Source: Chlorobium sp. (lineage in GTDB: Bacteria > Bacteroidota > Chlorobiia > Chlorobiales > Chlorobiaceae). Taken from it: 64,000 nucleotides of DNA. Positions 23,315 to 39,723 of the stretch are shown piece by piece. The position numbers and the translations under genes are program-made. The DNA lies in assembly GCA_005862225.1 (NCBI GenBank), contig SZXV01000002.1, positions 496,001-560,000 of the forward strand, in the 5' to 3' direction. How positions within the stretch are numbered: the stretch's first letter is position 1; each line of letters starts with the position of its first letter. The notes beneath the pieces are model-generated. The model was not told where the DNA came from. It searched no databases and saw nothing but the letters and a program-made list of their open reading frames with translations.

Positions 23315-26300
23315 ATGGCAGATTCTTTCATCTATGATGTTTTTCTGAGCCACAACAAGGCGGATAAACCGAAGGTGCGGCGGCTGGCGGAGCGGTTGCG
23401 CTCGGCGGGTGTGCGGGTCTGGTTTGATGAGTGGGTTGTCAAGGCGGGTGAAATCATTCCGCTGAAGGTGGATGAGGGGCTGGAGCAGTCTCGGGTGCTG
23501 TTACTTTGCATCTCCCCTGAGGCCCTTGCTTCGGGATGGGTGGCCCAGGAGCGGAGCACTGCTGTTCACCGTGACCCCTCCAATGCAGGTCGCCGTTTTA
23601 TTCCGCTGCTGCTTGCCGAGTGTGACCTGCCTGATACACTTGCGAAATATAAGTATCTGGATTTCCGTGAGGAGTCAGATTCAACCTTTGCTGAGCTGTT
23701 GACCTCTTGCAAGCCTGAAACAGATTCTCTCCCCTCATCTTTCCTGCCTGAGGTTCAGAAGAGTCCTGAAAAGAAATCCTTAAAGCAACCAATAGCGAAA
23801 AAGCCCACACCGGCAACGTCACCGGAGGAGAGCGAGCCGCTGGCTGTAATGGAGCGCAAGCTTGAGGGGCATTCGGGTTGGGTTAATAGTGTGGCTGTCA
23901 GCCCGGATGGAAAATGGGCAGCATCTGGTTCTGCAGACAAAACAGTTAAGATTTGGGATCTGGAGAGCGGAGATTGCCGGACGACGTTGGAAGGACATAC
24001 GGATAATGTCAAATCTGTTGCGATCACGCCGGACGGAAAGCGTATCTTTTCGGGTTCTTCAGACAACTCTGTTCGTGTTTGGGATGCAAGCTCGGGTCAG
24101 GAATTGGCCAAGCTGGATGGTCATACAAACAGGGTATGGTCAGTGGTTGCTTTACAGGAAAAAGCCTTGGTATTGTCAGGGCGATTTGATGACACACTTC
24201 GACTGTGGGATCTTGCATCGAATTCGTGCAACAAAATTATTAAGTGCGGAGAGGACAGCCGAGAGAACAGCGCAGACGATATTTTCACCAGCGCCGTTAA
24301 TCGGACGGGAAGCCAGGTACTGACTGGGCATCGGGACGGACGTATTTTGCTCTGGAACCTCAATACAGGTGAGTACCTGGCTATGTTCAAGGGGCATTCG
24401 AGGTGTGTGTATTCTGTGCAGATCACGCCAGATGGTTGCTTCGCTGTTTCGGGTTCAGAAGACAAAACTGTTAAAATCTGGGATTTGAAATCTGGGAGCT
24501 GTGTAGGAACACTCGAAGGTCATCAAAAAAGTGTGATGTCCGTTGCCATCTCTCCCGATGGTACCTTGATCGCCTCAACGGGGTTAACGGACTACACTGT
24601 TCGGTTCTGGGATTTGAAATCAGGGGCCTGTTTGCAGGAGATTACGCTTGCTTTTCCGATGGCGCCGATATCCGTTGCCTTCACTCCCGATGGATTGCGG
24701 CTCATAGTGGGAATTGCAGACAATGCCGGGCGAATTTACGTTTATCGTCTTACCGGAGTCAGCACTCAATTATCCGTTGAGGCAACGCGCCGATATGTGA
24801 ATGCCAAGGTGGTTCTGCTTGGGGAGGGAACGGTGGGCAAGACTTCGCTGGCGCATCGTTTGATTGAGGATAAATATGTTGTCAAGGATCGCACTCACGG
24901 GATGAATGTCTGGCCGTTGAAGTTGCCGCTGCCTCCTGATGCAACGCTGGAGCGAGAGGCGCTGCTTTGGGATCTTGCCGGGCAGGAGGATTATCGCCTT
25001 GTTCATCAGCTCTTTCTGGAGCAGACAGCACTGGCGCTCTTGCTTGTCAATCCGCAAAAGGACGATCCCTTTGTTGAAGCGGGGGAGTGGCTCAAGGCTT
25101 TGAAAACCGCTGCAAACATGAGCTCTTCTGCCAAAGAAGCAGCGCGGTTGTTGCTTTTTTCCCAGATTGATGTTGGCGGGATGAAGGTGAGCAATGCAAA
25201 GATTGAACGGTTTTGTGAGCAGCATGGCTTTGCCAACTGGCTTCCCACCAGTGCCAAGACAGGTGAGAACTGCTCCGACATGGAAAATAGCGGTGTCCCT
25301 TCAAAGCTGAAGCAGCTCATAGCAGAGAGCATTCCGTGGGCGAAGTTATCGTGGACCAGTACGCCGCGCCTGCTGGCGGAGCTTAAGAGTGCCGTGATGG
25401 CGATGCGTGACGAGTCGGACATCCGTTTGCTCCGCTTTGCCGAGCTGGCACAGCGGATTGAGCAGTTGCTGCCGGAGGAGAAATTTGTTGAGTCTGACCT
25501 TCGCACGGCGGTGGCACTGCTCAGCAATCATGGTCTGGTTCGCTTGCTGAAGTTTGGCGATCTGGTATTATTGCGTCCCGACCTCATCAATGGCTATGCC
25601 GGGGCGGTTATCCGCGCGGCGCGGGCCCATACCGATGAGATTGGCTGCGTGCTGGAGGCCGATATTTACAAAGAGGATTTCGATTTCACGGGGGTTGAAC
25701 GGCTGAGGCATCGCCCGGATGAGGAGCTGCTTTTGCGTGCTTTGGTGCAGACCTTCCTCGATCACTCGCTTTGCATTGCCGAGGAGACACCGCACGGTCG
25801 TCATCTTGTTTTTCCGTCGCAATACCGTCGGGAGAAAGATCTTCCGCATGAACCGGATATTTTTGTCTCCTACACCTTCAGCGGTGAGTGGCAGACGGTC
25901 TGGACTACGCTGGTGGTGCGTCTCTGGTACAGTCAGGAATTTGAGCACAAAGAGTTATGGCGCAATGCTGCCGAGTTTGAATCGTCAAAAAAGCAAACCT
26001 TGGGGTTAAAGGTTACGAAGGAGGGTGACGGCGCAGCAACTATCAGTCTCTATTTTGACCATAAAGTGCCGGATGAGTTGAAGGTCATCTTTATCGAGTA
26101 TGTTCACCGTCATCTGGCGAAGTATGCCTGTGAGGTGATGCGTGACCGGCGGTATGTTTGTTGTGGTTGTGGTCGTCCATTCAAAGATTTAGAACTCATT
26201 CGGGAACTGCTGAACGATGGAGAGAAGACCATTGTCTGCCAGAAATGCAGGACAGAGGTTGAATTGATTGACTTCATAGAGCAGCGGCTCAAGAGTGATC

Positions 26301-26803
26301 CTGTTGCCCAAAAGATTCTCGCGATGGAGCAGGCCGCCACCCGCGAACTTGGCAACCAGGCGCTGGAGCAGATCCTTATTGGTCATGCAATGGCAATCAC
26401 CGGCGAGGCGAACCAGATTTTCCGACCGGTGACCATGTTTGACTACGGCATTGATGGCGAAGTGGAGTTCAGGGACAACGATGGCAAGCCGAGCGGTCAA
26501 AAGATATACGTGCAACTCAAGAGCGGCAATTCCTACCTCCGCACCCGCAAAGGCGATGGCAGCGAGGTTTTCGATGTCACGAATGAGCGCCATCTGGAAT
26601 ACTGGATTCAGCAGCCGGTGGATGTCTATCTCGTTATCCGCCAGAGCGATGAGATGAGTGGTCAGGAGGTTATCCGCTGGATGAACGTGACCCGCTATCT
26701 GAAGAGCCGGAAGAATCAAAAGAGCCGCCAGATCATTTTTGCGGGCGAAAAGCTGGATGCTTCAGCCGTATGGAGAGTGCGCGATCAATTTTTTAAGCCC
26801 TGA
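23315..26803 (+). CDS. TIR-WD40-Roc GTPase-DUF4365 conflict protein (copy 2)
   Basis: A 1162-residue tandem paralogue of the 19.1-kb gene with the same domain order. TIR covers residues 4-135, seven WD40 repeats span about 179-480, and the Roc P-loop GEGTVGKTS is near 503 with switch II WDLAGQEDYR. The zinc ribbon has a changed first half (CCGCGRP then CQKC), and DUF4365 follows from about 1010 (YGIDGEVEF, VQLKSGNSYL). The TIR, GTPase and C-terminal parts are nearly identical between copies by eye, while the WD40 propeller and the linker before it diverge most. All key motifs are intact, so both genes look functional. Confidence 0.9.
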   Translation: MADSFIYDVFLSHNKADKPKVRRLAERLRSAGVRVWFDEWVVKAGEIIPLKVDEGLEQSRVLLLCISPEALASGWVAQERSTAVHRDPSNAGRRFIPLLLAECDLPDTLAKYKYLDFREESDSTFAELLTSCKPETDSLPSSFLPEVQKSPEKKSLKQPIAKKPTPATSPEESEPLAVMERKLEGHSGWVNSVAVSPDGKWAASGSADKTVKIWDLESGDCRTTLEGHTDNVKSVAITPDGKRIFSGSSDNSVRVWDASSGQELAKLDGHTNRVWSVVALQEKALVLSGRFDDTLRLWDLASNSCNKIIKCGEDSRENSADDIFTSAVNRTGSQVLTGHRDGRILLWNLNTGEYLAMFKGHSRCVYSVQITPDGCFAVSGSEDKTVKIWDLKSGSCVGTLEGHQKSVMSVAISPDGTLIASTGLTDYTVRFWDLKSGACLQEITLAFPMAPISVAFTPDGLRLIVGIADNAGRIYVYRLTGVSTQLSVEATRRYVNAKVVLLGEGTVGKTSLAHRLIEDKYVVKDRTHGMNVWPLKLPLPPDATLEREALLWDLAGQEDYRLVHQLFLEQTALALLLVNPQKDDPFVEAGEWLKALKTAANMSSSAKEAARLLLFSQIDVGGMKVSNAKIERFCEQHGFANWLPTSAKTGENCSDMENSGVPSKLKQLIAESIPWAKLSWTSTPRLLAELKSAVMAMRDESDIRLLRFAELAQRIEQLLPEEKFVESDLRTAVALLSNHGLVRLLKFGDLVLLRPDLINGYAGAVIRAARAHTDEIGCVLEADIYKEDFDFTGVERLRHRPDEELLLRALVQTFLDHSLCIAEETPHGRHLVFPSQYRREKDLPHEPDIFVSYTFSGEWQTVWTTLVVRLWYSQEFEHKELWRNAAEFESSKKQTLGLKVTKEGDGAATISLYFDHKVPDELKVIFIEYVHRHLAKYACEVMRDRRYVCCGCGRPFKDLELIRELLNDGEKTIVCQKCRTEVELIDFIEQRLKSDPVAQKILAMEQAATRELGNQALEQILIGHAMAITGEANQIFRPVTMFDYGIDGEVEFRDNDGKPSGQKIYVQLKSGNSYLRTRKGDGSEVFDVTNERHLEYWIQQPVDVYLVIRQSDEMSGQEVIRWMNVTRYLKSRKNQKSRQIIFAGEKLDASAVWRVRDQFFKP

Positions 26804-27197
26804 AGGCAGCAATGGAAGTGGTTTTGCTATTGCGTTTTAATTCCCTGACGTTATGCAAAAATAAAATTATCGGCAGGAACCATCAAGCAAACTGTTACAG
26901 TGTAGCCTAAATGTCAAGTTGTTGGATATCACGGTCGAATTGAGCTTATTCAGGATCGTGCAATCTGCGTTTTTCGTGGCGTTGTTAAAGGCATCAATAC
27001 TGATTTTGAGAGAACGAAAGAGAGTGAAAAGATATGCTTGTAACCGCGATTGACTTATCGGGATGCCACCTGTTTGGCAATCAGTAGTAACATTCAATTC
27101 GAGCAGAGTCAAAAGTGGAGGGTAGCATCGCTGGTGAGGTACTTAATCCAAGTCAGCTAAAGAAAAATCTGAACACAGATTGATAAATGTGAATCCT
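26804..27197. other. Gene-free stretch between the TIR island and the DUF1016 gene
   Basis: About 390 bp with no convincing gene, repeat or structured element. An 81-codon reverse frame exists but has no ribosome site and no family resemblance. The sequence may be eroded accessory DNA and probably carries the promoter of the DUF1016 gene. Confidence 0.4.
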
Positions 27198-28346
27198 ATG
27201 AACTACAACCAGTTACTTGCCCTCTTCAAAGAGACTCACCGGGAGTTACAGCACCGAGCAGCCCGGTCGGTCGACACCTCCCTTGTGATCCGGAACTGGC
27301 TGTTCGGTTGGTACATTGTTGAGTTTGAACAGGGTGGCGCAGACAGAGCTGAGTATGGAGCCAATTTATTAAAGAAAATCGCTGCTCAGTTGAAGATCAA
27401 GGGCTGTTCAGAACGAAGCCTTGCGCTCTGCTGTAAATTCTATCTCACCTATTCAGGAATTTTGCAGACGGTGTCTGCAAAATCTTCTGGTAACCGTTTC
27501 GGGCTTCAGGATATGCAACAGGCGGTGCCGATTACATCTTATGAGGCCATTGCCAATGCACCCAAGGTGCTGCGGGAACTTTCCGCGACATTGGCTGGCA
27601 GCTTCTCTCTGGGGTGGTCGCACTACGTTACTCTGCTGACAATCTCGAATGCGGATGAACGCAGGTTTTACGAAATTGAAACACAAGAAAACAGTTGGGG
27701 GGTAAGGGAATTGAATAGACAGATATCGGCCTCACTCTTTGAACGGTTGGCACTCAGTCGGGACAAGGAAGGTATCAGGCAGCTCTCACAGAAGGGGCTG
27801 GTTATTGAAAAGGTGAGTGATGTTATCAAGAACCCTTTCGTGCTTGAGTTTCTGGAACTGGAAGAGAAGAGCGCTTATTCGGAACATGCACTTGAAACCG
27901 CGATTATTGATCACCTTGAACACTTCCTGCTCGAATTGGGCAAGGGGTTTCTCTTTGAGGCTCGTCAGAAACGGTTCACTTTTGATAACGACCACTTCTA
28001 TGTGGATCTGGTCTTTTACAATCGCCTTTTGCGTTGCTATGTGCTCATTGATCTCAAACGCGACAAGCTGACTCATCAGGACTTGGGTCAGATGCAGATG
28101 TATGTGAACTACTTTGACCGGTATGTCAAAACAGGGGATGAACTGCCGACAATCGGCATTCTGTTGTGCCATCGCAAGCATGATGCCTTGGTTGAACTGA
28201 CTCTCCCCAAAGATTCGAATATTTTTGCGTCGAAGTATCAGCTCTATCTCCCCTCAAAAGAGGAGCTGAAGAGGCAACTGGAAGAGGCGGCAGGCATTCA
28301 GCATCCCAAAATTCCAGATCAGCAGGATATTGACGCTGGTCAATAA
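27198..28346 (+). CDS. DUF1016 / YhcG-type PDDEXK nuclease
   Basis: A protein of about 382 residues. The N-terminal half is the DUF1016 helical domain (VIRNWLFGWYIVEFEQGG). The C-terminal half is a PDDEXK nuclease domain with the active-site pattern in FYVDLVFYNR followed by YVLIDLKRDKLTHQDLGQMQ (D, then D-x-K). YhcG-like proteins are common in defence islands and next to restriction systems; their biological role is unsettled. A TTG 18 bp upstream is an alternative start. It stands alone behind the TIR pair, suggesting membership of the same accessory island. Confidence 0.9.
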   Translation: MNYNQLLALFKETHRELQHRAARSVDTSLVIRNWLFGWYIVEFEQGGADRAEYGANLLKKIAAQLKIKGCSERSLALCCKFYLTYSGILQTVSAKSSGNRFGLQDMQQAVPITSYEAIANAPKVLRELSATLAGSFSLGWSHYVTLLTISNADERRFYEIETQENSWGVRELNRQISASLFERLALSRDKEGIRQLSQKGLVIEKVSDVIKNPFVLEFLELEEKSAYSEHALETAIIDHLEHFLLELGKGFLFEARQKRFTFDNDHFYVDLVFYNRLLRCYVLIDLKRDKLTHQDLGQMQMYVNYFDRYVKTGDELPTIGILLCHRKHDALVELTLPKDSNIFASKYQLYLPSKEELKRQLEEAAGIQHPKIPDQQDIDAGQ

Positions 28347-28356
28347 CTGGGCCCGG

Positions 28357-29223
28357 CTATTGTGCCAGAGCCGTCAGCGCTGTGCCGATGGTTTTTACCA
28401 CTACGGATGAAGAGATGTCAAATTCTTGAGGGTTCCCGATAAAAATTGATGCTGGTAATCTGAGTGGATTCAGGATCAGTGACGTTTCGTTACTGATCAG
28501 TGTGGTCATCGCCTTGTCAGCCATTGCGCCGCTGACCATGATGCCTTTTTCACGACAGATCGGGTTGTTGACCAGCTCTCTTATGGCAAAATATTCGGTT
28601 TCCTCACGGCTTTTTACCTGACGGCAGGAAAATTTTTCTATTCTTCCATTGATTGTTATGGTAAAAATGACAGCGTCGCGTTCAAGTTCAAGGAGAATCT
28701 GCGGTTCTCCGGCAAACCTTGAGAGGTGAATAAGAGGGAGTTGCGTCGAGTTCCTGAAGACTATCCGGTGATTGACAGACAGAAAATCTGAAATGGTTTT
28801 GCAGGGTTCTGCCGGATAGAAAAGCAGAAGATGTTTTTCATGCAGTCCCTCAACGCTTCCATAGTCCGTACAATCGCAAAGGTACTCTTCAGGTTTGGTT
28901 AAAAAGTATTCGGCTTCAATTTTGCAATACTTTTGATACTCTTCGGGAGATGCCCCGGCAGGAAAACTGGCAGGAAGAGGGAGCCAGGTTTTTGCAGCGA
29001 TACTCAGAGCCAATTCATCAGCTTTCCACTCTTTGAGGTACTTCTCAAGTTTTTTCAGAAAGCGCATTCCTTTGCCCGGAGCAAAGTCATTAATGCCGAA
29101 AGGCAAAGTTTTACAGGCACTCAGAATATAGCCGTTGCCACCGGAGGTTTTCAACCGGACAATGGCTGAGACTGTCGTGTCGATAGAGCATGCTATCAGG
29201 CTTTTACTCGTCACTTGAGACAT
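28357..29223 (-). CDS. Unknown protein, possibly actin-fold PilM-like
   Basis: A 288-residue protein that I do not recognise with confidence. It starts SLIACSIDTTVSAIVRL, a beta strand with an acidic residue as in the phosphate-1 region of actin-like ATPases. A late segment GIMVSGAMADKAMTTL could be the adenosine motif. The composition and its coupling to a ComEA-like gene (stop and start share one base) would fit a degenerate PilM/actin-fold protein of a type IV pilus or competence system. No signal peptide or membrane segment is seen. Confidence 0.55.
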   Translation of the reverse strand: MSQVTSKSLIACSIDTTVSAIVRLKTSGGNGYILSACKTLPFGINDFAPGKGMRFLKKLEKYLKEWKADELALSIAAKTWLPLPASFPAGASPEEYQKYCKIEAEYFLTKPEEYLCDCTDYGSVEGLHEKHLLLFYPAEPCKTISDFLSVNHRIVFRNSTQLPLIHLSRFAGEPQILLELERDAVIFTITINGRIEKFSCRQVKSREETEYFAIRELVNNPICREKGIMVSGAMADKAMTTLISNETSLILNPLRLPASIFIGNPQEFDISSSVVVKTIGTALTALAQ

Positions 29224-29738
29224 TATTCAAGGGTAAAATGTTTACTGAGAAACTCAAGCTTTTTTTTGCCGATTCCCTTGACTTCAAGAAAGTCCTGAAA
29301 TTGCAGCACTTTTCCTCCTTTTGCCTTTCTGAAGGTGATCAGCCGTTCGGCCATAACCGGGCCTATTCCCGGAACGCTCTGTAGCTGTTTGATCGTGGCT
29401 CTGTTGAACGGGATGGTTCCTGTAAAAACCTTCTTTTCCGAAACCCGGCGGGAGGTTCTCTTTTCAGTGGCGGCGTCAGCTTTTTCTCCTTCAATGCTTT
29501 GCATGACATCCGCTTTGACCGTCGTCTGAGCTATGGCAGCAAGAGAGATCAAGCTGTCAACCTCGGCTTCCCGGTAACGGGAGGCTTCAACTTTTTTGAC
29601 AAGAGTCTCCGCCTTCTCTACCGAATTGATATTTTTCAGGATACCACCAAGCACAAGAAAGATCAGAAGCACCGAAACCAGCGAGATTTCAGCTTTGGTA
29701 AAACTGAGCGTGACGGCCAATTTTTCGAGTACCTTCAT
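29223..29738 (-). CDS. ComEA-like helix-hairpin-helix protein
   Basis: A 171-residue protein with one N-terminal membrane segment (ISLVSVLLIFLVLGGIL, about residues 18-34). A polar spacer follows, and a C-terminal tandem helix-hairpin-helix DNA-binding domain: FNRATIKQLQSVPGIGPVMA and later FLEVKGIGKKKLEFLSKHF. This is the layout of ComEA, the membrane-tethered DNA receptor for natural transformation. It overlaps alr by 4 bp (ATGA) upstream and abuts the unknown gene downstream, so the three form an operon. Other competence genes are not in the window. Confidence 0.85.
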   Translation of the reverse strand: MKVLEKLAVTLSFTKAEISLVSVLLIFLVLGGILKNINSVEKAETLVKKVEASRYREAEVDSLISLAAIAQTTVKADVMQSIEGEKADAATEKRTSRRVSEKKVFTGTIPFNRATIKQLQSVPGIGPVMAERLITFRKAKGGKVLQFQDFLEVKGIGKKKLEFLSKHFTLE

Positions 29739-30886
29739 AAAAAAACACGTTTAACCCTTGAAGAAACTGAGCAAAGCGTCTCATAGCTGATCGTGCCGGT
29801 GATTGCGGCAAGATCATCGGCCGCAGGCCCTTCCCACCCAAACAGAACAGCTCTGTCGCCTCTTTTGACGTCGTGCTCTGTGCCGAGGTCAACCATCATC
29901 TGATCCATGGTGACAATGCCGACCTGTGGATATGCTTTGCCGTTGATCATCACTGTGGCTTTGCCCGAGAGTGCTCTTGCATAGCCATCGGCATATCCAG
30001 CGGCAATAGTTGCAATATGGTGCGCTCCGGGAGCAGTCCAGGTTCGGTTATAACTGATTGTTTTGCCTGCATTCACTTGTTTGATGAAGATAACCCTTGA
30101 CTCGAACTGCATCACCGGTTTGACATCAAGAGTGCAGGGAGTGTTTTTTGCTGGATGGTAACCATAAAGCAGAATGCCAGGACGTACCATATCAAGCCAG
30201 GAGGATTCAGCCGAAAGGATAGCGCCGCTGTTGGCCGCATGTTTGCAGGTCGTTGTGGAGGCAGCATGTTCATATTCTGTTGTCAGCGCCTTGAAGGTTT
30301 CAAGCTGATGAAGCGTGAAGCCGCCAGGTGTGGCGCTTTCCGCAAAGTGAGTGTAGATGCCGTTCAGTTTCAGATGCGACGAGCGGTCAATCTCCCTGAG
30401 AAGCTCCATTGCCATCGAAGGAAAGGCGCCGAGTCGCCCCATCCCGGTATCAACTTTTACCTGCACTGCCAGCGTTTTACCGTGGGCGGCAGCAATCTGT
30501 TGCGCGGCATGGAGTGTGGCACTGTCGCAGATGGTCATGTCAATGCCGTATTTCAGAAAAAACTCTATATGAGAAGGGAGCGGGGAGGAAAAAGCAAGAA
30601 TTGTGGCAGGTTTTTTCAATGCACCGCCGGTTTTCAGCTCAATGGCTTCATGAATGTTTGCCACACCAAAATCACTGATCCCCGAGGCTGCGAGCGCTTC
30701 TGAGACCCTGTGAACATTATGGCCATAAGCATTTGCCTTGACAATGCCCATGATACGGGCCTTTCCGTTTATTCTTTCACGGATTAAACGCACATTCCGG
30801 GCAAGGTGCTCCATCGAGACAAGAGCCTCGGTCATATTTTCTGAGGGAAACTCGCCTGTCGACCTGGCGGTGGTTTGTTCATCCAT
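29735..30886 (-). CDS. alr: Alanine racemase
   Basis: A 383-residue PLP enzyme producing D-alanine for peptidoglycan. The PLP lysine is Lys50 in GIVKANAYGHN. The catalytic tyrosine motif appears as ISYNRTWTAPGAHHIATIAAGYADGY, quoted here only in part: SYNRTW and GYADGYARAL. The MDQMMVDLG segment near the C-terminus is also standard. The N-terminal 18 residues are an extra polar stretch. It leads the alr-comEA-like-unknown operon. Confidence 0.94.
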   Translation of the reverse strand: MDEQTTARSTGEFPSENMTEALVSMEHLARNVRLIRERINGKARIMGIVKANAYGHNVHRVSEALAASGISDFGVANIHEAIELKTGGALKKPATILAFSSPLPSHIEFFLKYGIDMTICDSATLHAAQQIAAAHGKTLAVQVKVDTGMGRLGAFPSMAMELLREIDRSSHLKLNGIYTHFAESATPGGFTLHQLETFKALTTEYEHAASTTTCKHAANSGAILSAESSWLDMVRPGILLYGYHPAKNTPCTLDVKPVMQFESRVIFIKQVNAGKTISYNRTWTAPGAHHIATIAAGYADGYARALSGKATVMINGKAYPQVGIVTMDQMMVDLGTEHDVKRGDRAVLFGWEGPAADDLAAITGTISYETLCSVSSRVKRVFL

Positions 30887-31128: not shown

Positions 31129-32502
31129 ATGCCAAACCACGATATATTCGGGCTTGCAGCCGCAACACCTCTGGTTCGTCTCAAACAGATGGCTCGCAAC
31201 ATCAGGCCTCAGGTCATGGCCAAACTCGAGTACATGAATCCGGCATGTTCTCACTATTACCGGGTGGCATGTGCTATTGTCAAGGATGCTGAAGATCGTG
31301 ACCTGATTCATCCAGGAATGACCCTTGTGGACTGGAGCTTTGGCAACAGCGGTATTGCTCTTGCCATGGCTTGTGTCAGTCGCGGGTATAAGCTGCTGCT
31401 TGCCGCTCCTGATAAAATATCACGGGAAAAACAGGATATGCTCAGGGCTATTGGCGCCGAATTGGTTATTACGCCGTCGGATGCCCTGCCTGGAGAGCCC
31501 CGCAGTTGTATGAATGTGGCAGAGAGTCTCGTCAAAAGCATTCCAAACGCTTTTTTTACCGGAATGCACGAGAATCCGGTCAGTCTCAAGGTGCACAGCG
31601 AAGCAACTGGCAGCGAAATTTTTCAACAGACGGAAGGGCGTGTTACCCATGTGTTTGTGCCCATGGCATCTGGCGCCATGGTGTTCGGGGTCGGTCGCTT
31701 TCTGAAAGCACAGAATCCTGAAATTCGTATTATAGGTGTGGAGTCGCAAGGTTCAATCTATTCAGGGCTTTTCAAAGATGGAAAGCCGGGCGCTCCGGCA
31801 TTTTCCGAACTGGAGGAGATCGGCTCCCAGCAGGCTTCGGCATTCTGGGACCCTTCGGTTATCGATGATGTGGTGCAGATCAGTGATTATGACGCCTTCA
31901 ACTGCGGCAGGGAGCTGTTGCGGATGGAAGCTGTTTTTGCCGGAGGCGCATCGGGTGCGGCAATGGCAGCGGCGCTTCAGGCTGGCGCCGGATATCGAGA
32001 GAGCGACTGTCTTGTTGTGGTGATGAACGATTTTGGCGGCTACTATCTGAGCAAGATGTACCGTGACGACTGGATGCGCAAACGGGGCTTTTACCGCAAG
32101 GCCAAATCGGCTATCGAGCAGATTACCGCCGAGGATATTCTGCACTTGAAGGTGCGCCGAGATCTCATTTTCGCCTGTCCGGAAAACACCCTTGCCGAAG
32201 TGTTTGAGATGATGAAGCAGAGTGATGTCTCCCAAATGCCGATTGTCTCTTACAATGCCCCCATCGGCAGTATCAGCGAGAACAAGATTCTCTCTATTCT
32301 CATTGAAAACGACGATGCGATGAACTCAAAGGTTGTGGGTTTTATGGAGAAGCCATTTCCGGTTTGTCCGCTTGATGCCACCATTTCAGAATTATCGGCC
32401 AAATTGCAGCAAAGCGCATCTGGCGTGTTGATCAGCCTTTCGGATGGACGGCTACAATTGCTTACAAAATCAGATCTTATTGATGCGCTGACTCATAAGT
32501 GA
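31129..32502 (+). CDS. Cystathionine beta-synthase-like protein lacking the PLP lysine
   Basis: A 457-residue protein. Residues 1-325 align along their length with cystathionine beta-synthase/cysteine synthase (fold type II PLP enzymes); residues 335-457 contain two CBS domains. The active-site block normally reading GGSVKDR is ACSHYYR here, so the Schiff-base lysine is replaced by Tyr43. The phosphate-binding GTGGT loop is also changed (ASGAM), and SGNTG is FGNSG. The frame is uninterrupted and the rest of the fold (GVESQGS, GGASGAAMAAAL, DDWMRKRGF) is well kept. It is therefore probably a catalytically dead but maintained protein, perhaps a regulator sensing adenosyl ligands through the CBS pair (inference). 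Confidence 0.88.
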   Translation: MPNHDIFGLAAATPLVRLKQMARNIRPQVMAKLEYMNPACSHYYRVACAIVKDAEDRDLIHPGMTLVDWSFGNSGIALAMACVSRGYKLLLAAPDKISREKQDMLRAIGAELVITPSDALPGEPRSCMNVAESLVKSIPNAFFTGMHENPVSLKVHSEATGSEIFQQTEGRVTHVFVPMASGAMVFGVGRFLKAQNPEIRIIGVESQGSIYSGLFKDGKPGAPAFSELEEIGSQQASAFWDPSVIDDVVQISDYDAFNCGRELLRMEAVFAGGASGAAMAAALQAGAGYRESDCLVVVMNDFGGYYLSKMYRDDWMRKRGFYRKAKSAIEQITAEDILHLKVRRDLIFACPENTLAEVFEMMKQSDVSQMPIVSYNAPIGSISENKILSILIENDDAMNSKVVGFMEKPFPVCPLDATISELSAKLQQSASGVLISLSDGRLQLLTKSDLIDALTHK

Positions 32503-32639: not shown

Positions 32640-33200
32640 ATGAAGGTAGAGTCGAGAAAAAGGCAGTTCATTTTGGAGGGTAAGATCAAGGCTTGCTTCT
32701 GTGAAGGATGTGGCAAGCTGACTGACAAGGTTTTTGTCGGCGAATGGATGCCGAGCGATAAGCCGAAGTATGACGATTTTCTGACGTCAGCTCCGGTGAA
32801 AAAGCATAAAGAAGGAAAAAATGTTGCGCTCAACGTTCAGCCATCGGCTGAAAATCAGTACTGGATTCGTTGCTCCGAGTGTAATCAGGTTTACCTCCTC
32901 AAGGAGTGGCAGATACAGATTGACCGGGAAGTCAGCCCGGAAGAGCTGAACCCGGAAGAGTGCCAGGTCTATTCTCCGCATGGTATTTACGCGAAAGGAG
33001 ATGCGCTCTATCATCAGGCGCTTGGAGAAGTTGGGGTGGTCCGGGAAAAGCAGGCGACCGGTAGTGGCGCTTTCGTGATTATTGTCGAATTCTCTAAAAG
33101 CGGCAGAAAACAGCTTCTCGAAAACGTGCAGATCAATGCTGTAAGCGGAAAGAGTTCGGAAAGCGTTACCGATATTATTAAACTTAAACTAAGACGTTAA
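32640..33200 (+). CDS. Unknown zinc-ribbon plus Tudor-like protein
   Basis: A 186-residue protein without a name I can support. The N-terminal part has two cysteine pairs (CFCEGCG at about 18-24 and RCSECNQ at about 79-85) that would form a split zinc ribbon. The C-terminal part ([18 protein letters not shown] then [12 protein letters not shown]) resembles the Tudor/KOW-like domain at the end of UvrD/PcrA helicases, which binds RNA polymerase. A role in transcription or translation is a guess supported only by these domains and by rpsU lying 41 bp downstream. Confidence 0.7.
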
Positions 33201-33519: not shown

Positions 33520-34824
33520 ATGCGAGTTTTCAAGGGTGAAGTTACAACATTGCCACCGGACAAATCGATCTCCCATCGGGCGGCTCTTATTGGCGCCTTG
33601 TCGGAAGGAACGACGGAGATCACAAACTTTTCCGGCGGGTTTGACAATCAGTCAACCCTCGGTGTTCTGAAAGATGCAGGAATCAAGCTTCAGCAGGAAG
33701 AGATAGAGGGCGCTTATGGGCGTCGCATCAGGCGGGTTGTGCTCGAATCACGGGGGCTATGGAGCTTTCAGTCGCCATCGGCTCCGTTGATGTGCAACAA
33801 CTCAGGCAGCACCATGCGCATGTTTGCAGGCATCCTTGCCGCCCAGCCCTTTGCAAGCGAGCTGATCGGCGACAGTTCGCTGATGAAGCGGCCCATGAAA
33901 AGAGTTGCTGATCCATTGCGCCTGATGGGCGTCGATATTGAACTGTCACCATCAGGAACTGCGCCAATCCTGATCAAGGGGACAAAAGCACTCAAGGCAA
34001 TTGAGTACCGTCTGCCAGTTCCCTCAGCGCAGGTGAAGTCACTGGTGGCCTTTGCCGCCCTTCATGCCGAGGGCGAAACCCGCATTATCGAGCCAGTGCG
34101 CTCCCGTGACCATACCGAATTGATGCTTGGCCTTGAAAGCATCGAATGCAACGGCGAAAAAGTTATTGTGGTGCCAGGCAGAAAAACTGTTTCCGCAAAG
34201 CCTTTTCTTATTCCGGCGGATCCATCTGCGGCATGTTTTATTGTTGCGCTTGGTTTGCTTGCCCGGGGTTCAGAAATCATCATCAGGGATGTCTGTCTCA
34301 ACCCTACCAGAGCAGCCTTTCTTGGTATCCTTTCAGAAGCCGGAGCAGGGTTATCCATTGAAAATCAGAGGGTGATCGGCGGCGAAACCATTGGCGACAT
34401 CCTTGTTCAGAATAACTCGGGGCTTGAACCCCTTGCCATCAGCGATCCGCAGCTTGTTGCCTTTATCATCGATGAAATACCGATGCTGGCCGTGCTTTCA
34501 GCCTTTGCCTCAGGCAGATTCGAGCTGCATAACGCCGCAGAGCTGAGAACAAAAGAGAGCGACCGGATTGACGCACTTGTCGTTAACCTTCAGCGCCTCG
34601 GTTTTGAGTGCGAGCAATATTCGGACGGTTTTGTGGTCAAGGGGCGCAAGATGACCCCTTCAAGCACCGTTGTGGTGGAGAGTTTTGACGATCACAGAAT
34701 AGCCATGAGCTTTGCCATTGCCAGCAAGGCAACCGGATGTGCCCTCGATATTACCGATATTGATGTGGTTGGCGTCTCGTTCCCTAACTTTTTTGAACTG
34801 CTTGAAAGTCTGGAAGTGAACTGA
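33520..34824 (+). CDS. aroA: 3-phosphoshikimate 1-carboxyvinyltransferase (EPSP synthase)
   Basis: A 434-residue EPSP synthase that joins shikimate-3-phosphate and phosphoenolpyruvate in the shikimate pathway. Family marks are [17 protein letters not shown] at the N-terminus, [15 protein letters not shown], the central [10 protein letters not shown], and the late [12 protein letters not shown] and [13 protein letters not shown]. The length is normal and all motifs are intact. Its 3' end overlaps the convergent hydrolase gene by 41 bp. Confidence 0.96.
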
Positions 34825-36679: not shown

Positions 36680-36813
36680 ACCAGAAGCTCTGCGGAAAAG
36701 CTTTTCTGGGGTGGTTGGGCCGTTTCCGGTAGGTTAATGCCCGCAACCAATTTTTTTTTAATAGGTTGTTGGGATGCGCTACAAAACATTGCTAACGATT
36801 ACTTACTATCTTG

Positions 36814-39723
36814 ATGAAACTCTCTTTATTTTTTTTGATGGCCAAGGTTCTCTGGCTCTGCCTTTTTTTTGACGCAGGCAGCGTTGGTGTTGTTTGTGCC
36901 CAAGTTGATAGCGCCAGAAGAGTGGCTGTTGTGTCAGCATCGGTGCCAGAAATGGGCTTAGCTGGTATTGCTCAAACTCCTGAAGTGAAGAAAGAAGATG
37001 AAAAACCCAATATCCTGACTGGTGTAATCGCCTTCATTAGTGGAGTATGGGCTTTTTTTACATTTGTCTATCCACGCGTGCGAAGTTATTACAAAAAGAA
37101 TAAAGAGCTTCAACGATATCAAGCCTTTCTCAGAGAAGAGCTGGGTTATATTCGCCTGCTTGGCTTGTCGGGTGTCGAAAGCGTCAAGGTAAACCTTAAT
37201 GATGATACTTTTGTGCCATTGCGTCTTTCAGACAGACAAGAGACAGGTGTTACATCTTCAGAAAAGGATACCATGTCTGGGCGAAATGATGGGCAGGTTC
37301 TTTATCCTGATGAAATCATGAAGCGGGTATTTAACGCTCAAAGCGGTCGCCGGATGCTGCTTGTTATCGGTGATCCTGGTGCAGGAAAAACAACGCTACT
37401 CAAGTATTATGCCTTATCTGCTCTTGACCGAAAACGTTCCTTGCGACTTGGGTTTTCTGGTTTGGTCAACGTTTTTTATCTGCCGTTGCGGGATCTTGTT
37501 CGTGATGAAAAAGGGCATTATGATTCGTTGCCTGTAAACCTTGCATTCTGGTCGGAAAAGCATCATCATACTCTTGCTGCACAGTATTTTGATGATTGGC
37601 TTCAGAGTGGAACCGCACTTGTTTTGCTTGATGGTCTTGATGAAATCAGCAACGTTGCTGACAGAATACAAGTGTGTAAATGGATAGATAATGCCTGGAG
37701 TGGATTGAGCAATGTATTTTTTGTGGTTACATCACGGGCAACTGGTTATAACAGAGATGAAGGAATCGAACTTGCTGCTGACTATGAGAGGGCTAATGTA
37801 CAGGACTTTACTTCAGAGCAGCAGGAACGTTTTTTAACGAACTGGTTCAGTGCGGCTTTTTTGAAAGACCCCCGTGATGAAGGAATGGATAAAATTGAGT
37901 GGCAGCGATGCCAGAAGGCTAAAGCCCATGAACGAACCAGGAAAATAGTAGCGCTCCTTAAAGAAGAGAAAAACAAGGGGTTGCGGCAGCTTGCGGCAGT
38001 GCCGATGATTTTGCAGATCATGGCTATTCTCTGGAAAGACAGAGATTATCTACCCGAGAGTCGCGTCGATCTTTACAACGCAGTGCTTGATTATTTCCTT
38101 GAACTCAGGGATAAGCGCAGGGAGATTACGGTGCTGATTCCGGCAAAACGTGCGCGAATGGTGCTTGGCCCGGTATCGCTTTGGATGCAAGAAGAAATGA
38201 AAACTGACGAGGTTGAACGGGAAAAGATGCAAGCCAAGATGCAGGAACGGCTTGATATCTTGTGTGAGAAAAACTATACACCACCTTCTGTTGATGACTT
38301 TTGTACCTATCTGGTGAATCGGGCAGGATTGCTTGTTGAGTATGGTTCGACGGCTTACATTTTTCGGCACAAATCTTTCAGGGAATATCTTGCCGGTGTT
38401 GAGCTTGTCAGAACCGTGCTTCAAAATCCGGAATATCTTGATACACTGATTTCCGGGTTTGGCGTTGACTGGTGGGAGGAACCATTAAAATTTTTTGTTG
38501 CCCAGGTTGATGAAAAGACATTTGATCTTTTTATCGAAAAGTTTTTCAATTCAACGGTGAGTGCGACGTTAACGCCAAAGCAGCAGTTGTTGCTTCACAC
38601 GCTCATCGAGGAAGCGCCGCAGAAGAAGATTGATGCACTCTGCAAAAAGCTTCTTTTGCCTGCAACTGATGCCAGTCGCCAGCGGGTTATTCTTGATTGT
38701 CTCAAAATTATCGGTAAACTCTCAGCTCTTGAGACCTTGCAGCAGTTCAAGGCTGACGGGCTTGCAAAAAACACAGATGTTGCTGACAGGGCTGAAGAGG
38801 TGATTCTTGCTCTGGGCGATATGAAGCTGGTATCTGAATCGCAAAAATCTGAAACCGGGGAAAAAGAAATTCAGTTTACGACTGTTATTGCCCGCTTCGT
38901 ACAACTCAAATATCGTCAACCTTCTTTTCGTAATCCGAATGAACATTATGCAGAGTACATCAGGATTCCTGGTGGAAGTTTCCGGTATTCTGTGTCAGGG
39001 AAGAAAGAGCGTGCAGGGGATTTGTATTTCGCAAAATATCCGGTAACCAACAAGTTCTATCGTTCATTCATTGCTTATGTGCAGTCACAGGCACCTGATT
39101 ATGAAGCACGGTTGCCACTCTCGACGTTCAGGAATGCGATAACCGACATTGAAAAGCGCAATTTATGGGATGACGGATTTGCTGCCTATTTGAATGAAGG
39201 CAAGGACGACCTTGCGAGTCTCTTTCGTTCGAAGCGAGATGAAGACCGGAAATTCGATGGCGATGATCAGCCAGTGGTCAGCATTACTTGGTACGCCGCC
39301 AAGGCTTATTGCTTGTGGCTCTCATTGCTTGAGGGAGGCGAGGATGGACTCTACCGTCTGCCAACGGAACAGGAGTGGGAATTTGCTGCGGCAGGAAAAG
39401 AGGGGCGTGAATATCCGTGGCCAGAAGAGAGAGGAGAGCCTTCAGCTCAATTGGCGAACTATAATGAACATGTAGGCGCTACGACCCCGGTAGGCAGCTA
39501 TCCCGACGGTGCGACACCCGAAGGATTGTACGATATGGCGGGCAATGTGTGGGAGTGGATGGATTATAAATACAATAAAGACACATCTGCCCGCGCGGTG
39601 CGCGGCGGTTCGTGGTTCAATGATCCCGTCAGTCTGCGTTGCTCTGCCCGGCTCAACGACGTCCCGGCGGTCAGGAACGACGCTATCGGTTTTCGGGTTG
39701 TCCGTCCCAGTCCCTCTTCCTGA
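36814..39723 (+). CDS. DGR target 1: membrane-anchored NACHT NTPase with C-terminal FGE-sulfatase domain
   Basis: A 969-residue protein. It has an N-terminal hydrophobic signal (residues 1-30, ending VVCAQ) and a second membrane segment (GVIAFISGVWAFFTFVYP, about 70-88) followed by basic residues, which predicts a cytoplasmic body. The NACHT NTPase has Walker A IGDPGAGKTTLL (near 186) and Walker B LVLLDGLDEIS (near 269), then a helical/HEAT-like region. From about 715 comes an FGE-sulfatase (C-type-lectin-like) domain: IPGGSFRY, FAKYPVTNKFYR, YRLPTEQEWEFAAAG, YDMAGNVWEWMD. VR1 lies at the extreme C-terminus; variable residues start at 935. The ATG at 36814 is preferred over the TTG just before it because the 22-nt leader aligns with that of target 2. 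Confidence 0.93.
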   Translation: MKLSLFFLMAKVLWLCLFFDAGSVGVVCAQVDSARRVAVVSASVPEMGLAGIAQTPEVKKEDEKPNILTGVIAFISGVWAFFTFVYPRVRSYYKKNKELQRYQAFLREELGYIRLLGLSGVESVKVNLNDDTFVPLRLSDRQETGVTSSEKDTMSGRNDGQVLYPDEIMKRVFNAQSGRRMLLVIGDPGAGKTTLLKYYALSALDRKRSLRLGFSGLVNVFYLPLRDLVRDEKGHYDSLPVNLAFWSEKHHHTLAAQYFDDWLQSGTALVLLDGLDEISNVADRIQVCKWIDNAWSGLSNVFFVVTSRATGYNRDEGIELAADYERANVQDFTSEQQERFLTNWFSAAFLKDPRDEGMDKIEWQRCQKAKAHERTRKIVALLKEEKNKGLRQLAAVPMILQIMAILWKDRDYLPESRVDLYNAVLDYFLELRDKRREITVLIPAKRARMVLGPVSLWMQEEMKTDEVEREKMQAKMQERLDILCEKNYTPPSVDDFCTYLVNRAGLLVEYGSTAYIFRHKSFREYLAGVELVRTVLQNPEYLDTLISGFGVDWWEEPLKFFVAQVDEKTFDLFIEKFFNSTVSATLTPKQQLLLHTLIEEAPQKKIDALCKKLLLPATDASRQRVILDCLKIIGKLSALETLQQFKADGLAKNTDVADRAEEVILALGDMKLVSESQKSETGEKEIQFTTVIARFVQLKYRQPSFRNPNEHYAEYIRIPGGSFRYSVSGKKERAGDLYFAKYPVTNKFYRSFIAYVQSQAPDYEARLPLSTFRNAITDIEKRNLWDDGFAAYLNEGKDDLASLFRSKRDEDRKFDGDDQPVVSITWYAAKAYCLWLSLLEGGEDGLYRLPTEQEWEFAAAGKEGREYPWPEERGEPSAQLANYNEHVGATTPVGSYPDGATPEGLYDMAGNVWEWMDYKYNKDTSARAVRGGSWFNDPVSLRCSARLNDVPAVRNDAIGFRVVRPSPSS
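39585..39708 (+). repeat. Variable repeat 1 (VR1)
   Basis: 124 bp at the 3' end of target 1 aligned without gaps to the template repeat. The first 31 bp and all non-adenine positions are identical. Fifteen positions differ and all are A in the template (to T, G or C). Ten of the 13 AAY/GAC-type template codons are altered (e.g. AAC to TTC, AAC to GTC, AAT to GCT). The 3' invariant block ATCGGTTTTCGGGTTGTCC, which ends in CGTCCC, corresponds to the initiation-of-homology region. Confidence 0.96.

Follow-up and report, generated by a model that had tools for sequence, protein, structure and literature searches.

A cystathionine β-synthase homolog of the Chlorobiaceae that has lost its PLP-binding residues: a probable regulatory pseudoenzyme

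What can be the role of a gene that similarity annotation would label cystathionine β-synthase (CBS), when most of the residues expected to hold its PLP cofactor have been replaced? Such a label would ascribe to the green sulfur bacteria a transsulfuration reaction that is impossible here by the known mechanism. The gene lies at positions 31129-32502 (+ strand) of the window, by which we mean the whole 64,000-nucleotide stretch of Chlorobium sp. DNA that was analysed. As an earlier note on this DNA had claimed, the open reading frame is intact and of full length: it encodes 457 amino acids, comprising a PALP core (approximately residues 5-322) and then a C-terminal Bateman module. The Pfam PALP profile (PF00291) matches with 189 bits against a cut-off of 35, the Pfam CBS profile (PF00571) matches residues 342-392 with 45 bits, and the NCBIfam model TIGR01137 (cysta_beta) aligns with residues 4-452 at 323 bits (322.7), short of its equivalog cut-off of 510.25 bits. 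Both profile and fold place the protein in the PALP superfamily (fold type II), and the arrangement of a PALP core with tandem CBS domains is that of CBS, with which it shares common descent; the best sequence match in the PDB is CBS from Mycobacterium tuberculosis, Rv1077 (3.6e-72). The AlphaFold model (mean pLDDT 89, pTM 0.72) was matched over its full length by Foldseek to human, Toxoplasma and mycobacterial CBS with an rmsd of about 17 Å, a value consistent with a differing predicted placement of the Bateman module. The earlier statement that both CBS domains are kept stands for CBS1, which alone exceeds the Pfam cut-off; CBS2 falls below it, and is backed instead by a conserved T446-x-x-D449 motif, by the AlphaFold secondary structure and by the full-length Foldseek matches to CBS.

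In human CBS (hCBS), the PLP ligands are Lys119, Asn149, Ser349, which contacts the ring nitrogen, and Gly256-Thr260 (PMC7277093); the equivalent residues in the Chlorobium protein are 43, 73, 274 and 180-184, respectively. The Schiff-base lysine is replaced by Tyr43 (31255-31257), within an SHYYR block (residues 41-45; 31249-31263) in which Tyr44 also takes the place of Asp; in alignment, NPACSHYYR is opposite NPGGSSKDR of Rv1077. The former GTGGT phosphate loop has become ASGAM (residues 180-184; 31666-31680). Both of these changes had been pointed out in the earlier note and are borne out; a third loss from the PLP site can now be added, since the serine that contacts the ring nitrogen is Ala274 (31948-31950; GGASG versus GGSSG). 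Elsewhere in the former active site, the TSGNTG substrate loop reads SFGNSG (residues 70-75; 31336-31353), Met146 (31564-31566) occupies a position at which Gln is invariant in active homologs, and Glu230 (31816-31818) stands where the VEG(I/M)G loop, here LEEIG, otherwise has an invariant Gly.

These substitutions are shared by the family. A search for orthologs across the Chlorobiaceae, proposed beforehand as a check, found the lysine restored in none: at residue 43, the 76 distinct full-length sequences have Tyr (74), Asp (one) or Ser (one), and the Schiff-base Lys is present in all 74 of the other CBS homologs examined. Likewise, G180, T181, G183 and T184 are replaced clade-wide, giving xSGAM in place of GTGGT, and the Ser to Ala change at residue 274 extends across the clade; Asn73, the residue contacting O3', is kept in 51 of the 76. 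The protein is, then, an enzyme homolog with its catalytic residues lost, that is, a pseudoenzyme, and we refer to it as pseudo-CBS. Among 76 positions that are at least 95% invariant in active homologs, six of the eight PLP contacts, as defined from the literature, have been lost, compared with 14 of the 68 others (Fisher p=0.003); with the substrate loops added, which was done post hoc after the alignment had been seen, the figures are 12/18 versus 8/58 (p=3.5e-5). Moreover, several of the replacements are bulkier than the residues they supplant (G40 to C/W/F, K43 to Y, D44 to Y/C, G180 to A/I/V, T184 to M and G230 to E/D), which suggests that the pocket has been filled. A relocated Schiff-base lysine was also considered and rejected: no newly fixed Lys is found within the pocket motifs.

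The gene was found in 79 of 86 Chlorobiaceae genomes, and is of full length in 76; the named carriers among the matches listed include Chlorobaculum, Pelodictyon luteolum and Chlorobium sp. The seven genomes without it are also without the adjacent gene for a 186-residue protein, which points to assembly gaps, even though one of them (G073) is rated 97% complete. No CBS devoid of the lysine was seen outside the Chlorobiaceae among the other named homologs in the matches listed, and no viral relatives of pseudo-CBS were found. One Chlorobiaceae bin holds, in addition, a distant full-length CBS homolog (L082; G042:C44:51483-52823; 28% identity), which sits on a long branch outside the pseudoenzyme clade and is perhaps a contaminant or a transferred gene.

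The setting of the gene bears on its origin. Upstream, and divergently transcribed, lies alr (alanine racemase; 29735-30886, − strand), the position of which is conserved in the Chlorobiaceae; downstream are the gene for the 186-residue protein, which has two CxxC pairs (32640-33200, + strand), and aroA (33520-34824, + strand), the third gene of a conserved order. In two sister families of the same order (f3 and f4), the ortholog is 44-48% identical and has canonical NPGGS(I/V)KDR, GTGGT and GGSSG motifs, so that it is presumably catalytically active; the gene for the 186-residue protein comes next after CBS in most of these loci, and is then followed by aroA in 6/10. In a further family, f2, known from two genomes, the gene for the 186-residue protein adjoins aroA and CBS is absent; in one of these genomes (G087), 462 bp separate alr from the gene for the 186-residue protein and contain no CBS remnant, so the CBS gene has been deleted there. 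In the tree, the pseudoenzyme clade is monophyletic (support 100/100, stem 0.86) and joins the f3 and f4 orthologs at 100/99. Because of this clade support, and because a canonical CBS occupies the same locus in the sister families, we conclude that pseudo-CBS arose from an active CBS in a single event.

The 186-residue protein, which of all the neighbours accompanies pseudo-CBS most constantly, is itself uncharacterized and is conserved order-wide beside aroA; matches to it were looked for in Pfam and the PDB and none were found, and its AlphaFold model is poor (pLDDT 61). We considered it as an obligate partner of pseudo-CBS and rejected this, as its gene also occurs in the sister families and persists in f2 at the site from which CBS is missing.

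The claim that the pseudoenzyme is under selection is upheld by the monophyly of the lysine-less clade, by the conserved synteny and by the rates of substitution. Nei-Gojobori (NG86) ω values, which are approximate given that dS is near 1, are 0.073 for pseudo-CBS in the window's genus (g1) and 0.109 in the other genus, compared with 0.152 and 0.194 for alr and 0.094 and 0.100 for aroA; purifying selection in g1 is thus stronger on pseudo-CBS than on either neighbour, and, within that genus, ω is 0.088 for the core and 0.044 for the Bateman module. In comparisons that ignore kinship among the sequences compared, the ratio of Bateman to core divergence is 0.45-0.54 in the pseudoenzyme clade (0.45 in g1) versus 1.56 in the sisters, the g1 pseudoenzymes and the sisters being taken at an equal mean core identity of 77%; similarly, the mean per-site entropy within the clade is 0.35 for the Bateman module, 0.50 for the former active-site loops and 0.84 for core positions outside the active site (loops versus other core positions, p=0.002). 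Judged from these sequences, constraint has moved from the catalytic core onto the Bateman module. The conservation of the former active-site loops is not required of a pure scaffold; the pocket may bind a ligand or contact the Bateman module.

The Bateman module (residues 329-457; 32113-32499, + strand) is the most conserved part of the protein in the Chlorobiaceae. Within CBS2, there is the T-x-x-D ribose motif of adenosyl-binding Bateman modules: Asp449 is present in 77/77 sequences, and Thr446 in 71/77, with Asn in the other six. Additionally, Ser368 and Gln369 of a VSQ motif (residues 367-369) are kept. The counterparts of these two motifs in hCBS, FDQ and GVVTAID, contact AdoMet (PMC4276868). 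Because Phe443 and Asp444 of hCBS are replaced by Val and Ser, respectively, AdoMet is not assured as the ligand of pseudo-CBS. VSQ is, however, also found at the equivalents of Phe443 and Asp444 in M. tuberculosis CBS, where the Bateman module confers a response to SAM and the formation of tetramers (PMC9232105).

Taken as a whole, pseudo-CBS is probably a former enzyme that now serves as a sensor or regulator. The reading that we favour, with a fair measure of confidence, is that of a PLP-free regulatory or sensor protein, in which the Bateman module would bind an adenosyl ligand and the core would serve as a dimerizing effector surface; the suggestion of a ligand sensor in the earlier note gains from the reversal of constraint, with ligand binding itself presumed. 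A more specific version, which we advance tentatively and with slightly less than even confidence, is that the only CBS of the Chlorobiaceae has become a PLP-free, adenosyl-responsive regulator of sulfur or methionine metabolism, in which the core acts as effector and constraint is greatest on the Bateman module. The ancestor of the Chlorobiales had a PLP-dependent CBS, presumably competent in catalysis and equipped with a Bateman module, the gene for which lay upstream of the gene for the 186-residue protein and aroA. On the stem of the Chlorobiaceae, the lysine, the phosphate loop and the ring-nitrogen serine were lost, several active-site positions being filled by bulkier residues, and the pseudoenzyme was then inherited vertically throughout the family. 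The protein would fold without PLP; on binding AdoMet or an adenine nucleotide, the Bateman module would switch its shape or state of oligomerization, and the signal would be relayed by the PALP core, presumably still a dimerizing scaffold, to a partner that plausibly acts in the metabolism of sulfur or methionine. A possible rationale is that these sulfide-rich phototrophs would make cysteine via CysE and CysK, rendering catalysis of transsulfuration dispensable. The deletion of CBS in f2 would fit with this; enzymes of the cystathionine γ-type family (PF01053) are present in all of the families examined, and, for that reason, their distribution is uninformative on dispensability.

That constraint is strongest on the Bateman module, and not on the core, also counts against the alternative that pseudo-CBS is a dead partner subunit, the core of which hetero-oligomerizes with, or directly regulates, CysK or another PALP enzyme. 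There are precedents: TSB-like of eudicots, a pseudoenzyme of a related PLP enzyme, activates its partner (PMC12727527), and the deoxyhypusine synthase (DHS) of trypanosomatids is activated by a dead DHS paralog (PMC3663545). The other PALP proteins in the window's genome are CysK, TrpB, TrpB2 and ThrC; there is no second CBS, which excludes, in this genome, the CBS partner suggested in the earlier note and leaves CysK for that note's other candidate, an OAS enzyme. CysK is the nearest active paralog; it retains NPGGSVKDR, and a serine acetyltransferase-like gene lies next to its own, but it is only about 34% identical to pseudo-CBS and is unlinked to it in the genome, and we regard such a partnership as unlikely, albeit worth keeping in mind.

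The unexpected conservation of the former active-site loops could alternatively reflect a new function of the remodelled active site, as either a PLP-independent catalyst or a metabolite-binding pocket. Indeed, Tyr43, Ser74, Ser181, Met184, Ala274 and Phe302 are clade-specific and nearly fixed. However, bulky or inert residues account for most of the changes, and no new invariant constellation of catalytic Lys, Cys or His is seen in the pseudoenzyme clade: His42 and Tyr44 vary among the orthologs, and the fixed lysines of the core are either ancestral, being found in active enzymes too (residues 32, 101 and 193), or outside the pocket motifs (residue 88). We consider this explanation improbable.

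Could PLP nonetheless be bound non-covalently, in a carrier or a low-activity enzyme? The retention of Asn73 and several pocket glycines in most orthologs, and the conservative nature of the Thr181 to Ser replacement, would be compatible with this, but it has to contend with clade-wide change at six of the eight contact positions, including the phosphate loop and the ring-nitrogen serine, and with the finding that mutation of the equivalent Lys44 by itself abolishes the PLP absorbance of M. tuberculosis CBS (PMC9232105). The likelihood of this seems small, and we infer that the Chlorobiaceae pseudo-CBS does not bind PLP. Lastly, a pseudogene or an assembly or sequencing error, which has the loss of catalytic residues and nothing further in its favour and to which we attach virtually no probability, is refuted by the presence of the same substitutions in 76 distinct orthologs, by full-length copies that are free of stops, by the ω of 0.07 and by the retention of synteny.

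The regulatory or sensor protein that we prefer can be compared with known systems. It shares with Rv1077 its domain order, a similar length and the VSQ and T-x-x-D motifs of the Bateman module, but Rv1077 is an active PLP enzyme with Lys44, GTGGT and the GGS serine, all three of which are lost in the Chlorobiaceae protein (PMC9232105). The CBS proteins of f3 and f4 (L092-L101) are its direct positional orthologs, and differ in having canonical PLP motifs, a conserved core and a variable Bateman module. By fold, the closest solved structure to the core is that of CapA1 from Capnocytophaga ochracea (PDB code: 9k2p; 36% identity), on which the core of the AlphaFold model alone superposes with 1.3 Å in Foldseek; unlike pseudo-CBS, CapA1 has no Bateman module and retains the lysine in an SAKDR motif. 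In CBS-1 of Caenorhabditis elegans, a CBS protein in which a region is duplicated, one of the two copies is without the PLP residues, but, in contrast to the Chlorobiaceae protein, it is fused to the active region in one chain and is not a free-standing pseudoenzyme. The two catalytic regions of CBS-1 lie within one chain (PMC4133348).

Pseudoenzymes with the PLP fold are already known, as exemplified by plant TSB-like (PMC12727527). The latter likewise derives from a PLP enzyme, the β-subunit of tryptophan synthase, and persists for an allosteric role; that TrpB and CBS belong to one fold superfamily is supported by the PALP match of the TrpB from the window's genome. The difference is that TSB-like is a plant paralog beside an active TrpB, whereas the conversion in the Chlorobiaceae affected the sole CBS of a family of bacteria, with a Bateman module attached. 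No report of a free-standing bacterial CBS pseudoenzyme was found in the literature searched, the coverage of which takes in few subscription papers, and that literature yielded nothing relevant on CBS or cysteine metabolism in the Chlorobi. The locus offers a clean natural experiment, in that a presumably active ortholog, a pseudoenzyme and a clean loss are found at one syntenic position in neighbouring families, and the role of a regulatory module after the death of its enzyme is directly testable in a family that has cultured members.

An Rfam search of the window gave no matches, and a scan for promoters and terminators gave results near chance level. Between a ComEA-like gene and a gene for a YhcG-type protein, there is a gene for a 288-residue protein (28357-29223, − strand) that has no Pfam match and is poorly conserved, its relatives being 29-59% identical. 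The YhcG-type protein (27180-28346, + strand) is a DUF1016/PDDEXK nuclease (PF06250 and PF17761; PADLOC candidate PDC-S02), and its gene adjoins that for a 1162-residue protein (23315-26803, + strand) with an N-terminal TIR-like domain (PADLOC models of the ThsB and TIR-SAVED types). By eye, the latter also contains WD40-like repeats and a Ras/ROC-like GTPase stretch, and it is possibly a defence or signalling protein. A 970-residue protein (36811-39723, + strand) shows, again by eye, stretches resembling a NACHT-like NTPase and, at the C-terminus, a formylglycine-generating enzyme, and has a weak PADLOC match to mad8.
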